Positions 12,175-16,600 of a stretch of 64,000 bases of DNA are shown here, piece by piece. Every line of letters starts with the position of its first letter. The first letter of the stretch is position 1. Under the pieces are notes generated by a model, which saw only the letters and a program-made list of their open reading frames with translations, had not been told where the DNA came from and ran no database searches. The stretch comes from Altererythrobacter sp. (GTDB lineage Bacteria; Pseudomonadota; Alphaproteobacteria; Sphingomonadales; Sphingomonadaceae). The translations under genes and the position numbers were made by a program. The stretch spans positions 186,001 through 250,000 of the forward strand of contig JAEULJ010000003.1 in the NCBI GenBank assembly GCA_016793865.1. Direction: 5' to 3'.

Positions 12175-12251
12175 GGCGGAGTAGCTCAGCCGGTTAGAGC
12201 AGCGGAATCATAATCCGCGTGTCGGGGGTTCGAGTCCCTCCTCCGCTACCA
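12175..12251 (+). tRNA. tRNA-Met (CAT), elongator type
   Basis: A 77-base tRNA with encoded CCA. The acceptor stem GGCGGAG pairs with CTCCGCT, the anticodon arm is GCGGA-ATCATAA-TCCGC (anticodon CAT), and the T loop contains TTCGAGT. The body matches the elongator tRNA-Met of alphaproteobacteria rather than the initiator; an Ile2 tRNA with the same anticodon is less likely. Its last 21 bases are duplicated at 16215-16235, so it is the target of an integrated element, which regenerated an intact tRNA at this end. Confidence 0.93.
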
Positions 12252-13939
12252 GCCTTCCCCCCGACAGCGGGGGATCGGCTGGAACCGCTCGCGAGGCGAT
12301 GTGGCGGGGACAGTGAAGCTGCTGCTTCGTTGTCCCCCACATCACCCGGAAACAGGAAGCGCTGGCCGATTAAGGCCTCCAGCCGCCCGATGATCTCGAT
12401 CTTGGGCGGCGGAGTATGGCGGTTACGCGACGCGCCAGCCGGGTGAAGCACCACCGTTTCGATCACTTCGCGCACGACCTTGGCCGCTTCCGAGTCGCCG
12501 TCGCTGCCAAGCGTTTCATGAAGGCGGGCAACAGCGGTTAGATAACGTTCGCGCGCGCCGGGGTGGAGCACCACAACGCTGGGCGTAGCCATCGCTGCCA
12601 GTCGGTGCTTCAACTCGTTCTCGCGGATCAGCACAACCTGAAGTTCATCGTTGATTCGGACGCGATCTCCGATGCCATCCATCAGCAGATCGTTTAGACG
12701 ATTAACCCGAGCCGTCGCGTTCACGAGGTCCGCCTCCAGACACGCGCGCTGCGTGGTCGAAGACATCCGCAGCCGCTTCATCTCTGCCTCGTATGCGTCG
12801 AGGAAGTCGCGGATCGCGTCTGGTTCCTGAAGTTCGCGCCGGAGGAGGCCGAGCACCCGCGCTTCAACCTCGTCGATGTAGTAGCTACGCGGGTCTGCGC
12901 AATCGCCGCTCTCCTTGTGTCGCGAGCACTGGAACCGCGTGCGGCCCGTCTTGTCCGCGCCTTTGGTGGACATCCCGCTGCCGCAGGCACCGCAGCGCAG
13001 CAGCCCGCTGAATACTCGCTTGGCGGCGCGGGCACGCTGGGGCGGCTCCTGCCGCTTCTTCGCCTTGCGAGCCGCTACAGCGTCCCACAGGTCGTGCGAT
13101 ACGATGCGCAGATGCTCGGCCTCGGCGCGCACCCATTCCCCCGCGTCGTTGCGCCGGGAGACGCGCTTGCCGGTGTTCGGGTTCACAACCATCCGGCTCT
13201 TGTTCCAGACGATGCGACCGACATAGAGTTCGTTGTTCAGAATGCCGCTGCCGCGTGCCGCCTCGCCGTGAATACACGACGCTGCCCAACGGCTCCCGCG
13301 TGGCGGTTTCACCCCGCGCTCGTTGAGGTCGGCTGCGATGGCGCGCGGGGTTTCGCCCGCCGCATAGCGCTCGAAAATCTCGATGATGATCCGCGCCTGA
13401 TCCTCGACGATCAGGAGGATGCCGCCACGCCGCTTCTCATGCGCGTGTCGCGGTGCCGACTGGTAGCCGTAGGCGCGGCCTCCCGCCGTGAAGCCGTTGC
13501 GGACGATGCCGTCCAGACCGCGCCGCACCATCTGCGCAGTCTGCTCGCGGGTGAGGTGCGCCACCAGCCCCTTCACCGCCGCGCCCATCGGGTCGAGCAC
13601 GGTGTTCGTTGCCGCCTCGATGACGGTGATGCCGAGGAAGGTCAGGTGCTCGATGGCCTTCTGGACATCGCCGTTGTTCCGCGACAGGCGGGAGACATTT
13701 TCGATATACAGGACGGTGAAGTCGCCGTCGTATGCGGCCTTCATCATCGTGTTGTAGCCGTCGCGCAGCAGGACCGATGCGCCGCTCTTCGCGTAGTCGG
13801 TGAAGCGGTTCGCTTCGGGCAGGCTATGCCCGTTCGCAGCAGCGCGCCGCTCCGACAGGCCAATCTGGTCGGCGATGGATGTCTCGTCCTGAAGGTCCGA
13901 ACTGTAGCGCGCGTAGATCGCGCCGATGGCGGGCATCAT
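12194..13939 (-). CDS. large serine recombinase (site-specific integrase)
   Basis: A 581-residue recombinase. The N-terminal resolvase domain has IYARYSSDLQDETSIADQ with the catalytic serine at residue 13 or 14 and the helix motif ENVSRLSRN. The central Recombinase domain spans about residues 165-290. The zinc ribbon has LLRCGACGSGMS and CSRHKESGDC, followed by a long coiled-coil C-terminal region. It integrates and excises the element. The last residues (TRTPDTRIMIPLL) are read antisense through the tRNA-Met gene, with the stop codon inside it; on the excised circle the tail would differ. The start overlaps a 45-residue ORF (ATGATG), giving translational coupling. Confidence 0.9.
   Translation of the reverse strand: MMPAIGAIYARYSSDLQDETSIADQIGLSERRAAANGHSLPEANRFTDYAKSGASVLLRDGYNTMMKAAYDGDFTVLYIENVSRLSRNNGDVQKAIEHLTFLGITVIEAATNTVLDPMGAAVKGLVAHLTREQTAQMVRRGLDGIVRNGFTAGGRAYGYQSAPRHAHEKRRGGILLIVEDQARIIIEIFERYAAGETPRAIAADLNERGVKPPRGSRWAASCIHGEAARGSGILNNELYVGRIVWNKSRMVVNPNTGKRVSRRNDAGEWVRAEAEHLRIVSHDLWDAVAARKAKKRQEPPQRARAAKRVFSGLLRCGACGSGMSTKGADKTGRTRFQCSRHKESGDCADPRSYYIDEVEARVLGLLRRELQEPDAIRDFLDAYEAEMKRLRMSSTTQRACLEADLVNATARVNRLNDLLMDGIGDRVRINDELQVVLIRENELKHRLAAMATPSVVVLHPGARERYLTAVARLHETLGSDGDSEAAKVVREVIETVVLHPAGASRNRHTPPPKIEIIGRLEALIGQRFLFPGDVGDNEAAASLSPPHRLASGSSRSPAVGGKAGSGGGTRTPDTRIMIPLL
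12231..12251 (+). repeat. attachment-site direct repeat, left copy (inside tRNA-Met)
   Basis: A 21-base segment from the T arm to the CCA end of tRNA-Met, beginning CGAGTCCCTC and ending GCTACCA. An identical copy lies at 16215-16235. Flanking bases differ on both sides, so the repeat is exactly 21 bp. Confidence 0.9.
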
Positions 13940-14073
13940 GAACTCGACTCCAGACCTGCGGCCTCGGCAGCATAGTCGGCGGCGGCGATGATCTTCGCAA
14001 GTGCTCGTGCGAGGTCGCGCACGAACTCGCGTCGCGCCTCGTTGTGTTTGTCTGTGTGGTTAGAGTGATCCAT
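13936..14073 (-). CDS. small protein coupled to the recombinase
   Basis: A 45-residue acidic/basic helical protein starting MDHSNHTDKHNEARREFV and containing RALAKIIAAADYAAE. It has a good ribosome site (AGGATCAGGG) 2-11 bases upstream, and its TGA stop overlaps the ATG ATG start of the recombinase. I do not recognise a family. The strict coupling suggests a recombination directionality factor or a regulator of the recombinase, but that is inference from position only. Confidence 0.6.
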   Translation of the reverse strand: MDHSNHTDKHNEARREFVRDLARALAKIIAAADYAAEAAGLESSS

Positions 14074-14178
14074 GCCCTGATCCTGACAGGGCGGACCAGT
14101 TCTCGGCTATAAATAAATCAGCACAAAGCGCAGATTGATTTATTGAAAGCGCGGGATGGCATCTGGTATTTTAAAGTC

Positions 14179-14658
14179 ATGCCCACAACAACCTTAAAGA
14201 CGAACTGGCTGAACTTTCTCTCCGATCAGGACTTCACCCACGCCATCACCTTCAAACCCAACGACGCCAACTTCACGAAGTCGGTCGCCGCACTTCATCG
14301 CCTGTTCGTCAAGGCGCACATGCTGGTTCAGCGCCGCCTGATCGGGCGCGGGTTCAACCTCGCCCAGAACCGCGCGCGCCAGACACCAGCGGTGGGCATT
14401 GTAGAGGGTTCGTTGCTGACGGGCCATATTCACGGGGCCTTCAAGGTCGCCCCGGATGACTGGTCGAAGTTCGAGGGACTGTTCGCCGGGGAGAAGCGGC
14501 GCGGCCCGAATCGGAACATCTGGCGGACGCTGGTCGCCAGCGGAACATGCGTGGTGGAGCCGATCCACGGCGCGAAGGGGTGGCACAGCTACACCTTCAA
14601 GGATGTCTGGCAGACCGACGACACCGACCGAGTCGTCATGCTGCCGCTGTCGGCCTGA
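14179..14658 (+). CDS. HUH-endonuclease/Rep-like protein (putative)
   Basis: A 159-residue protein that carries, in order, the three motifs expected of rolling-circle initiators. Motif 1 is HAITFKPN (residues 21-28), motif 2 is VEGSLLTGHIHGAFKV (E76, H83, H85) and motif 3 is GWHSYTFKDVW with Y138 and K141 in a YxxK arrangement. HUH proteins nick DNA with that tyrosine using a metal held by the two histidines. No helicase domain follows, so it would be a minimal initiator or relaxase. The ATG at 14179 was preferred to a TTG at 14143. The family assignment is from motifs alone. Confidence 0.5.
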   Translation: MPTTTLKTNWLNFLSDQDFTHAITFKPNDANFTKSVAALHRLFVKAHMLVQRRLIGRGFNLAQNRARQTPAVGIVEGSLLTGHIHGAFKVAPDDWSKFEGLFAGEKRRGPNRNIWRTLVASGTCVVEPIHGAKGWHSYTFKDVWQTDDTDRVVMLPLSA

Positions 14659-14783
14659 CAACCGACCTCGCCGTTCGACCGTCGTCTGTTGCTACCAGCA
14701 GGGCCCAGATCGCCGTGAAATCACCGGACGCCAGCGCTCTCCGTCAGGAGGGCAATGGAGAGTAATGCCCAAAGGAGAAGGAC

Positions 14784-14978
14784 ATGAGATACAAAGACAT
14801 CATCGAGTCCATAGCGGACGAAGCCATAAAGGCAGCACAGAAGCGATTGAAGGCGAGCCAACAGATCGACAACGCACGACGCAAGAAGAGCGCTGCTGCC
14901 CAGAAATATCAGGACACATTGCGAACCGCTAACCAGTCGGAACAAGCCGCCAAGGCGAAGCTGAACTCGCCGAGGTGA
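14784..14978 (+). CDS. small helical hypothetical protein
   Basis: A 64-residue protein, MRYKDIIESIADEAIKAAQKRL at the start, strongly charged and almost certainly one long helix or coiled coil. An excellent ribosome site (AAAGGAGAAGGAC) precedes it. It lies 125 bases after the Rep-like gene on the same strand. Lys- and Gln-rich composition unlike the chromosomal neighbours supports an element origin. Function unknown; a DNA-binding or plasmid accessory role is possible but unsupported by motifs. Confidence 0.6.
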   Translation: MRYKDIIESIADEAIKAAQKRLKASQQIDNARRKKSAAAQKYQDTLRTANQSEQAAKAKLNSPR

Positions 14979-15051
14979 TCGCGTCCCGCAGGGTATACCT
15001 GAACAGGTGCACGGTTCGGGGGCCAAATCTGTTCCGAATAGCTTGACATCG

Positions 15052-15081
15052 AGACCCTTTCGGGACATACCGATAGGGTCT
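15052..15081. promoter_or_regulatory. inverted repeat before the resolvase gene (res site or operator)
   Basis: AGACCCTTTCGG and CCGATAGGGTCT are 12-bp arms matching at 11 of 12 positions around the 6-base spacer GACATA. They begin 4 bases after a TTGACA box (15043-15048) and end 22 bases before the resolvase ATG. Twelve-base inverted arms are the typical unit bound by small serine recombinases. Confidence 0.5.
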
Positions 15082-15103
15082 TTAGGTTATATGGAACAGC
15101 GCG

Positions 15104-15646
15104 ATGTTGATCGGCTACGCGAGGGTGAGCAGCACGGGGCAGGACCTCACCGTTCAGGAGGAGGCGCTTCGCGCTGCCGGTTGCGAGCAAATCTACAGCG
15201 AGAAGAAGTCCGGTCGGCAGGCGGCTGATCGCGAGGCCCTTCACGACGCGATGAAGGCCGCGCGCGCGGGCGACATCATCGTCGTGTCGCGGCTCGACCG
15301 CTTCGCCCGTTCGACGCAGGACCTCCACAACCTGCTCGGCACCTTGGAGGCGAAGGGCGTCGGCTTCCGCTGTCTCGCACAGGTGGGCGTGGACACCACT
15401 ACGCCCACCGGCAAACTCACCCTGTCCATTCTTGGCGCAGTTGCGGCGTTCGAGGCGGACCTGCGCGCCGAGCGGCAAGCGGAGGGCATCGCCCGTGCGA
15501 AGCAGGAGGGGCGCTACAAGGGTCGATCCGCCAGCATCGATTACGCCAAGGTGCGCAAGCTGCACGGTCAGGGCATCAGCCCCACCGAGATTGCTGGGCT
15601 GCTCGGCATTGGACGCACAAGCGTTTACCGTGCGCTCGCGGCTTGA
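15104..15646 (+). CDS. serine resolvase/invertase, Tn3-resolvase type
   Basis: A 180-residue small serine recombinase. The N-terminus MLIGYARVSSTGQDLTVQ has the catalytic serine at residue 9 or 10, the central region has VVSRLDRFARSTQDL with the active arginines, and the C-terminus is a helix-turn-helix (GISPTEIAGLLGIGRTSVYRALA). It would resolve multimers of the element or invert a segment, acting on the repeat just upstream. Having both a large and a small serine recombinase is more plasmid-like than island-like. Confidence 0.92.
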   Translation: MLIGYARVSSTGQDLTVQEEALRAAGCEQIYSEKKSGRQAADREALHDAMKAARAGDIIVVSRLDRFARSTQDLHNLLGTLEAKGVGFRCLAQVGVDTTTPTGKLTLSILGAVAAFEADLRAERQAEGIARAKQEGRYKGRSASIDYAKVRKLHGQGISPTEIAGLLGIGRTSVYRALAA

Positions 15647-15679
15647 AGGAGGTCGGCCAGTGAAGTTGTTGAGCAAGGG

Positions 15680-16159
15680 ATGAGCTATCAGGGTGGAGCG
15701 GATTACGAGCGGGCTTTCCGGGTAGCCTATGGGGTGTTCGTCGTCGCTATGATCGGCGCGGTCATCTACATGACCATGCGCCCGACGCGACCGCCCCCGG
15801 CGAACGGCAAAGCGTTTGGCTGCTATACGACTGCCAATGCGCCGCCGATCTCACTGGACGCACGAGGCATGATCATCCACCAGTCTGCCCCGATCCGCAT
15901 CGGGTTTCATCTGGAGCGGCATAAAACGGGCATCGCGCTGACGGCGGATGCTCCCATCGAGGCAAACCCTACCCAAACAGGCTATATCTACTCGATCCGC
16001 CCACCGGGCATCGGTTGGTTCATGGACTTCTTCCATGAGGTTGATGGCCGCTCTTACGGCGTGTTCGACGAGAACGCGTTGCGGCAGTTCACCATGCTCG
16101 CCCGCGATGGGATATACCTGCCTTACCGTAAGGCTGATCCAGTCGAATGCGAGGGCTGA
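15680..16159 (+). CDS. hypothetical protein with one membrane helix
   Basis: A 159-residue protein. After a short polar N-terminus, one membrane helix (VAYGVFVVAMIGAVIYMTM, about residues 16-34) is followed by a proline-rich linker and a soluble domain of about 115 residues. That domain probably lies on the periplasmic side. It begins GKAFGCYTTANAPPISLD and ends with a second cysteine near the C-terminus, which could pair. No family recognised. It is the last gene before the right attachment repeat. Confidence 0.6.
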   Translation: MSYQGGADYERAFRVAYGVFVVAMIGAVIYMTMRPTRPPPANGKAFGCYTTANAPPISLDARGMIIHQSAPIRIGFHLERHKTGIALTADAPIEANPTQTGYIYSIRPPGIGWFMDFFHEVDGRSYGVFDENALRQFTMLARDGIYLPYRKADPVECEG

Positions 16160-16214
16160 TCATATTGGCTGATCGAGCAGTCGGAAAGTAGGGACCCCTG
16201 TCAGGGGGATCGAC

Positions 16215-16235
16215 CGAGTCCCTCCTCCGCTACCA
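16215..16235 (+). repeat. attachment-site direct repeat, right copy
   Basis: Identical to the last 21 bases of tRNA-Met. It is only the tRNA tail, with no D arm or anticodon arm before it, so it is a scar of integration and not a tRNA gene. A CCCCT/AGGGG hairpin lies just inside the element at 16196-16208. Confidence 0.9.
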
Positions 16236-16473: not shown

Positions 16474-16488
16474 CATGGTAGCGCTATC
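16474..16488 (+). promoter_or_regulatory. LacI-type operator, upstream copy
   Basis: CATGGTAGCGCTATC, a near-palindrome centred on AGCGCT, the form bound by LacI-family sugar regulators. Its exact inverse lies 110 bases downstream (centre to centre), a spacing suited to DNA looping. Confidence 0.6.
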
Positions 16489-16585
16489 GCAAATGACCAT
16501 TTCTTCTCAGGTCAGTATCCGGCGCAACAAATGGGCTGTTGCGGAGACAGCGTTGACAGGAACTTTCAAATTCGATAGTCATAAT

Positions 16586-16600
16586 GATAGCGCTACCATG
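16586..16600 (-). promoter_or_regulatory. LacI-type operator, downstream copy
   Basis: GATAGCGCTACCATG, the exact reverse complement of the upstream copy. It begins 27 bases after a TTGACA box at 16553-16558, so it should cover the transcription start of the receptor gene, a position that fits repression. Confidence 0.6.

Follow-up and report, generated by a model that had tools for sequence, protein, structure and literature searches.

The element and its boundaries

The 64,000-nucleotide stretch of Altererythrobacter sp. DNA considered here (the window; contig JAEULJ010000003.1, positions 186,001 to 250,000) carries a tRNA-Met gene whose 3' end is copied exactly over 21 bp, 3984 bp away from start to start, and the 4.0 kb between the two copies encode a large serine recombinase (LSR), a 45-aa open reading frame (ORF), a protein with the motifs of HUH endonucleases, a 64-aa ORF, a small serine resolvase and a 159-aa ORF (Table 1). 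The 21-bp repeat has no match in 100 shuffles and the last 17 bp of the tRNA are present in two copies only in the 2.56-Mb assembly; together with the exactness of the repeat, these results bear out the original prediction, made from the letters of the window, of a tRNA-Met element bounded in this way, and the LSR, HUH-motif protein and small resolvase that it placed inside the repeats are recovered from ORF translations and Pfam. The 4.0-kb stretch is a real mobile element targeted to tRNA-Met, and sequence comparison supports its boundaries, its recurrence at tRNA-Met in Croceibacterium soli and Novosphingobium sp. Leaf2, the anatomy of its attachment (att) sites, the assignment of the HUH protein by motifs and predicted fold, and the presence of a cargo slot.

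Table 1. Features of the element and of its target tRNA gene in the window
Feature	Position	Strand	Remarks
tRNA-Met (CAT)	12175..12251	+	ARAGORN; target gene, left whole by the element; CAT could be elongator Met, initiator Met or Ile2
LSR, 581 aa	12194..13939	-	3' end and stop inside the tRNA gene
attL core	12231..12251	+	21-bp repeat of the tRNA 3' end
Left-end arm of attP-like dyad	12252..12267	+	ends CCCCCCGACAG; edge of the motif lies 26 bp away from the centre of the dyad (between 12240 and 12241)
45-aa ORF	13936..14073	-	stop overlaps LSR start; no Pfam family
9-bp perfect inverted repeat	14112..14144	.	AATAAATCA-N15-TGATTTATT; may be an operator or a replication origin
HUH endonuclease, Rep-like, 159 aa	14179..14658	+	ATG start; TTG at 14143 possible (171 aa)
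Spacer	14659..14783	.	90% identical to C. soli, 98% to Leaf2; exceeds LSR and resolvase genes
64-aa ORF	14784..14978	+	open in three copies; no family above cut-off
28-bp imperfect dyad upstream of resolvase	15053..15080	.	candidate res-like site; conserved only partly
Small serine resolvase/invertase, 180 aa	15104..15646	+	with HTH_7
Variable-slot gene, 159 aa	15680..16159	+	no family in Pfam, PHROGs or NCBIfam
Right-end arm plus attR core	16198..16235	+	core 16215-16235

Recurrence in other genomes and the cargo slot

Searches with the HUH protein give matches in 3 of the 199 genomes from the family, in 3 of 296 from the order and in 4 of 289 from the class (these counts, as well as those given below for the genus, include the window's own genome). 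Scanning the species-genome collection with two short peptide patterns only returns 74 stretches, three of which encode an HUH relative, in Novosphingobium sp. Leaf2 (L050), in C. soli (L051, a place also covered by G066/L036) and in Polymorphobacter arshaanensis (L052, the same place as L037). The P. arshaanensis protein is 23% identical and its genome (G003) has no match to the window LSR. The copies in Leaf2 and in C. soli, which belongs to a genus other than that of the window, start in tRNA-Met, continue with LSR, HUH protein, 64-aa ORF and resolvase, and end in the tRNA repeat; the core gene order, which had been proposed as something to look for at other tRNA-Met loci, is accordingly shared by both. 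The last 16 bp of the tRNA occur twice in each of the three element-bearing genomes, and the direct repeat at both ends and the same boundaries are found in different flanks in the three copies. At the DNA level, the window matches Leaf2 at 89% from the tRNA to the resolvase stop and then only over the last 37 bp (92%), and it matches C. soli at 90% at the left end, at 82% up to the resolvase and then only over the last 35 bp, which are identical.

The interval between the resolvase and the right repeat is occupied by a 159-aa protein in the window, a 156-aa protein in Leaf2, and a DUF6680 protein plus a 142-aa repeat protein in C. soli. Since its content differs in each copy, this interval is read as a cargo slot, and the view that the element carries no cargo is contradicted by the other genes that the C. 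soli and Leaf2 copies hold there. The 142-aa slot protein (L036, 11847-12275) is made of WRSDGNGG-type repeats.

As for sites without the element, the left flank of the C. soli copy (genes that we take to be RNA ligase-like and MltG-like) is syntenic, together with tRNA-Met, in 4/4 other genomes of that genus, and the ~1.3 kb past the tRNA in these four genomes contain no element match; their right flanks differ, so that the tRNA is unoccupied there without amounting to a clean empty site. The protein at the left flank of the window copy of the element is found in 2 of 60 genus genomes, and in the other one (G391) it lies ~200 kb from the tRNA-Met match. The tRNA query matches 58 of these 60 genomes, several of which have a second 35-48-bp copy of the tRNA end within ~20 kb, and other islands thus seem to use the tRNA-Met site too. 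Second copies of this length, ~0.4-20 kb from the tRNA, were recorded in nine congeners (G348, G731, G078, G313, G359, G386, G730, G709 and G715), where they probably mark other islands, with repeats longer than the 21 bp of the element.

Anatomy of the attachment sites

When the two ends are joined, the best dyad, which is imperfect, is centred on TC^CT inside the repeat in all three copies. The right repeat copy of Leaf2 has two mismatches in 21 bp, and both positions at which this attR core differs from attL lie to the left of the dyad centre, which suggests that crossover takes place to the right of them. A motif with its outer edge 26 bp from the centre reads TGTCAGGGGG in the window, TGTCGGGGGG in Leaf2 and TCTCAGGGGG in C. 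soli on the right-end side, and on the left-end side TGTCGGGGG is matched 9/9 at position 26 in the three copies. The T-arm of the tRNA contains TGTCGGGGG at position 21, i.e., 5 bp nearer the centre, and among shifts from -8 to +8 over positions 16-27 the +5 shift is the best in 6/6 attP arms (8, 10, 7, 9, 9 and 9 of 12), these arms being not independent, as they come from three related copies, and the positions having been picked after the motif was seen. Compared with the left half of attB, either attP arm shows the shift, and a 5-bp displacement between attP and attB is reported for the LI integrase in passages of Rutherford et al. (PMC3783163). Among seven other LSR loci at this tRNA, TGTCGGGGG is matched 9/9 at position 26 in G017, whose LSR is 41% identical, and 8/9 at position 27 in G028; none of 17 control arms reaches 8/9, their maximum being 7/9, once at position 26.

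That a distant LSR relative uses this tRNA gene and this crossover point is supported by a second island. Specifically, in G052 (LSR 39% identical) the last 13 bp of the tRNA are repeated in the same orientation ~12.5 kb away, and the joined ends have their best dyad at exactly the same centre (score 16 of 28, the next-best having 13) and the arms TGGGGTTACA / TGTAACCCCA. Across the fetched loci of at least 10 kb, 515,877 bases in all, the 13-mer occurs four times outside tRNA genes, namely in Leaf2, C. soli (L036, and again as L051, which is the same place) and G052. The stretch between tRNA-Met and the 13-bp repeat in G052 is a 12.5-kb island with a distant LSR (L121, 7486-19972).

The large serine recombinase and the predicted change of its tail

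The LSR has Resolvase, Recombinase and Zn_ribbon_recom domains, all above the Pfam cut-offs. Its gene is convergent with the tRNA gene and overlaps it on the opposite strand, which corrects the earlier description; because it extends into the tRNA, excision would alter its final codons. When the ends are joined computationally, the LSR of the circular form is 587 aa long and the tail GGGTRSIPLTGVPTFRLLDQPI replaces GGGTRTPDTRIMIPLL, and the predicted circular form of Leaf2 is also 587 aa long, with a different tail.

This arrangement recurs among LSR relatives, since the stop codon is inside an opposite-strand CAT tRNA in 14 of 26 loci of the family, seven of them, by a 16-bp search, at a tRNA with the same 3' end and seven at another CAT tRNA; the remaining 12 loci are in part at or near tRNA-Gly, tRNA-Asn or tRNA-Met and in part in stretches for which no tRNA was called. 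Each of 16 genomes with LSR relatives has a single copy of the last 16 bp of the tRNA; in seven of these genomes the LSR is at this tRNA and in nine it is elsewhere, so that the repeat test is irrelevant for the nine. A search for the tail-end repeat in 10 stretches of 20 kb from six of the seven genomes found a single case, the 13 bp of G052, and outside the tRNA the other stretches of these six genomes have no more than internal matches of 11-12 bp, if any. The direct repeat consequently holds for the three copies of the element plus G052, and for the other LSR relatives we infer that the tRNA is the target. LSRs that are 28-42% identical (L008-L033) often have VAEEGLEPPTRGL- or VAGTGFEPVTFRL-type tails that come from the antisense strand of CAT tRNA genes.

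The small resolvase was considered as the integrase, as in phiRSM, and the LSR was preferred because its gene overlaps the att site, because the stops of 14/26 relatives lie inside a CAT tRNA, and because G052 and G017 share att features without needing the other genes of the element. The LSR is, therefore, the likely integrase.

The HUH protein and its surroundings

The motifs HxH and Y-x-x-K define HUH enzymes. Both are invariant in 7/7 homologues of the HUH protein, which keeps the glutamate, HxH and YxxK residues as E76, H83, H85, Y138 and K141, and its predicted fold resembles that of HUH Reps, with SIRV1 ORF119 (PDB 2x3g; 14% identity) as the best match among the families of the VIA list. 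Motifs and predicted fold agree in this way with the Rep-like assignment of the original prediction. By sequence, REP_ORF2-G2P (PF23343) has no match to the window protein at E<=1 and its gathering score is not reached; among the relatives, L046 scores 29.6 bits against a cut-off of 27.8, L048 24.4 and L047 13.0, and L036, L037 and L049 have no match. A sequence search of PDB returned two matches at chance level, and PADLOC matched 0/6 proteins.

The HUH gene and the spacers that flank it are more alike between the window and C. soli than the LSR and resolvase genes are, the spacers 13940-14142 and 14659-14783 being 88-90% identical, the HUH gene 89% and the interval 14143-14178 81%, as compared with 79% for the LSR, 68% for the resolvase and 61% for the spacer before it; positions 13965-14029 are identical. 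Third codon positions follow the same order (HUH protein 81%, LSR 60%, resolvase 46%). Judging from these identities, the Rep core may either hold cis-acting DNA, such as an origin, or have been exchanged more recently. The hairpin at 14112 (z -2.24 for a 66-nt stretch) is kept in the other two copies and is not present in L037 or L046-L049, and the folding of the spacer 14659-14783 is no better than that of shuffles.

Two HUH homologues lie in other settings. The distant one in P. arshaanensis (L037, 7409-7972) is ~0.4 kb from a tRNA-Pro, near a large gene that we take to be methyltransferase-like, and another is on a 5.1-kb contig (L047, 1-5087) together with a Rep_3 initiator and a small serine resolvase; this contig may be a small plasmid that has initiators of two kinds. 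Beyond the right end of the element, the window has a perfect 15-bp inverted repeat, CATGGTAGCGCTATC, with arms 97 nt apart (16474-16600), which overlaps the start region of a TonB-receptor ORF and could be the operator pair of a regulator.

A probable mini integrative element and the alternatives

The features described above are best explained by a mini integrative element that is inserted by the LSR and whose circular form replicates by a rolling-circle mechanism, a reading to which we assign a probability of roughly 0.68. According to this model, the LSR would insert the ~4-kb element at tRNA-Met and, after excision, the small HUH protein would nick the circle to start rolling-circle replication; the small resolvase would probably resolve multimers, and passenger genes, one or two of them, would be exchanged in the slot between the resolvase and attR. 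The steps that we infer are excision, replication, resolution and, whatever its route, transfer between cells. A more ambitious version, tentative and on balance doubtful, is that the element belongs to a family of its own, made up of integrative rolling-circle replicons of ~4 kb whose cargo slot can be swapped, in which the LSR would read the tRNA T-arm as half of attB and would take its own tail from the host tRNA when integrated and from the right end of the element when circular, so that the protein would report, and perhaps act on, the state of the element.

Several results weigh against the rolling-circle integrative element, in addition to the limits already stated for the six arms. The LSR of C. 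soli is split into two frames; no model of Pfam, PHROGs or NCBIfam matches the window HUH protein; searches of the plasmid and phage collections did not find the element as a unit, with 24 plasmid records matching short parts of it (4-10% of the query among the matches listed, none reaching 80%); and relatives of the HUH protein or the LSR were not found in viral contigs by a pattern-limited search. The proposed check for an empty tRNA-Met site was answered in part, by the unoccupied tRNA of the C. soli congeners (4/4), and no same-locus empty site was found for the window among the 60 genus genomes. At the att sites, the dyad scores are modest (14, 14 and 16 of 28 pairs, with the next-best centre at 13 of 25 in the window), the right attB half has no clear motif, five of the seven other LSR loci at this tRNA lack the motif, with only 5-6 of 9 for TGTCGGGGG, and the motif of G052 differs from that of the element, with no 5-bp shift seen by eye.

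The alternative that survives best, although unlikely, is an integrative and mobilizable element (IME), whose HUH protein would be a relaxase nicking an oriT, with a helper conjugative element carrying the DNA and replication being secondary or absent. Passages of an IME review relate the relaxases of some conjugative elements to rolling-circle Reps (MobT; PMC5704250), and the sharing of the element by different genera means that it transfers somehow; however, no relaxase model matched in the Pfam scan of the element ORFs, and the HUH protein is just 159 aa long, with distant relatives that match replication-protein families. Less probable still is a phage satellite or a capsid-less relative of inoviruses, of which the Rep and the serine recombinase at a tRNA would be the surviving parts and for which a helper filamentous phage would package the single-stranded DNA circle. 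The passing of REP_ORF2-G2P by a distant HUH relative is consistent with it, as is the combination, in passages on the inovirus RIP1, of a pII-like Rep for rolling-circle replication with a small serine recombinase of the resolvase type, an enzyme of the kind by which phiRSM integrates at tRNA-Ser, but neither the phage collection nor the pattern-limited search of viral contigs gave a match, and no coat or Zot-like family was found for five ORFs in Pfam, PHROGs and NCBIfam and for the 45-aa ORF in Pfam. Finally, an integrated remnant, i.e., an old LSR island with decaying resident genes, would account for the two frames of the C. soli LSR and is very improbable, given that both the window and Leaf2 have open frames for the LSR, the HUH protein, the 64-aa ORF and the resolvase, that both ends are intact, and that in each of these four genes the third codon positions are the most variable, indicating selection on the protein.

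Significance and comparison with known systems

Under the rolling-circle integrative element reading, the element offers, at a tRNA gene, a serine integrase whose attP and attB are predicted, and LSR relatives in this bacterial family often end in CAT tRNA genes (14/26 loci), despite the statement of a 2014 tRNA-island resource that serine integrases are not known to use tRNA genes. Passages of an actinobacterial survey call serine-recombinase insertion at tRNA rare and name Mycobacterium AICEs at tRNA-Leu and phage phiRSM1 at tRNA-Ser (PMC3218068), and the view that such recombinases at tRNA genes are uncommon is in line with both sources. The IME review, in its passages on the subject, describes serine-recombinase IMEs as disrupting dispensable target genes (PMC5704250). 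With its own probable replication starter in 4 kb, the element is also a small test bed for the minimal needs of such an element. Literature text searches, which reached the sources in part, brought up no paper recognised as describing it; the suggestion of an undescribed family may hold for this element, although its kind, a serine recombinase at a tRNA with a rolling-circle Rep, has precedents.

The nearest fold, SIRV1 ORF119, differs in being an archaeal virus protein of low identity to the HUH protein. The Dehalococcoides ssrA islands, as described in passages of PMC3146451, are alike in having an RNA gene as target, an LSR of the CcrB-like sort next to the att repeat and a small serine recombinase that resembles PinR; they differ in their tmRNA target and in a six-gene module with RecF-, ParB- and Mom-like genes, and these passages mention no HUH Rep. 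The element, in turn, is at tRNA-Met, and its ORFs scanned in Pfam include no RecF-, ParB- or Mom-like family. The phiRSM and RIP1 inoviruses (PMC4471427, PMC10975378, in the parts available) share with it, respectively, a tRNA target and the pairing of a rolling-circle Rep with a small resolvase-type serine recombinase, but they are filamentous phages in which the small recombinase is the integrase, whereas in the element this is likely the LSR, and no virion genes matched. The Mycobacterium AICEs, according to passages of PMC3218068, differ in their own FtsK/TraB-type transfer gene, a family that none of the six element ORFs matches in Pfam, and in their actinobacterial hosts; they resemble the element in the insertion by a serine recombinase into a tRNA gene, within a class of elements that includes rolling-circle RepSA initiators.

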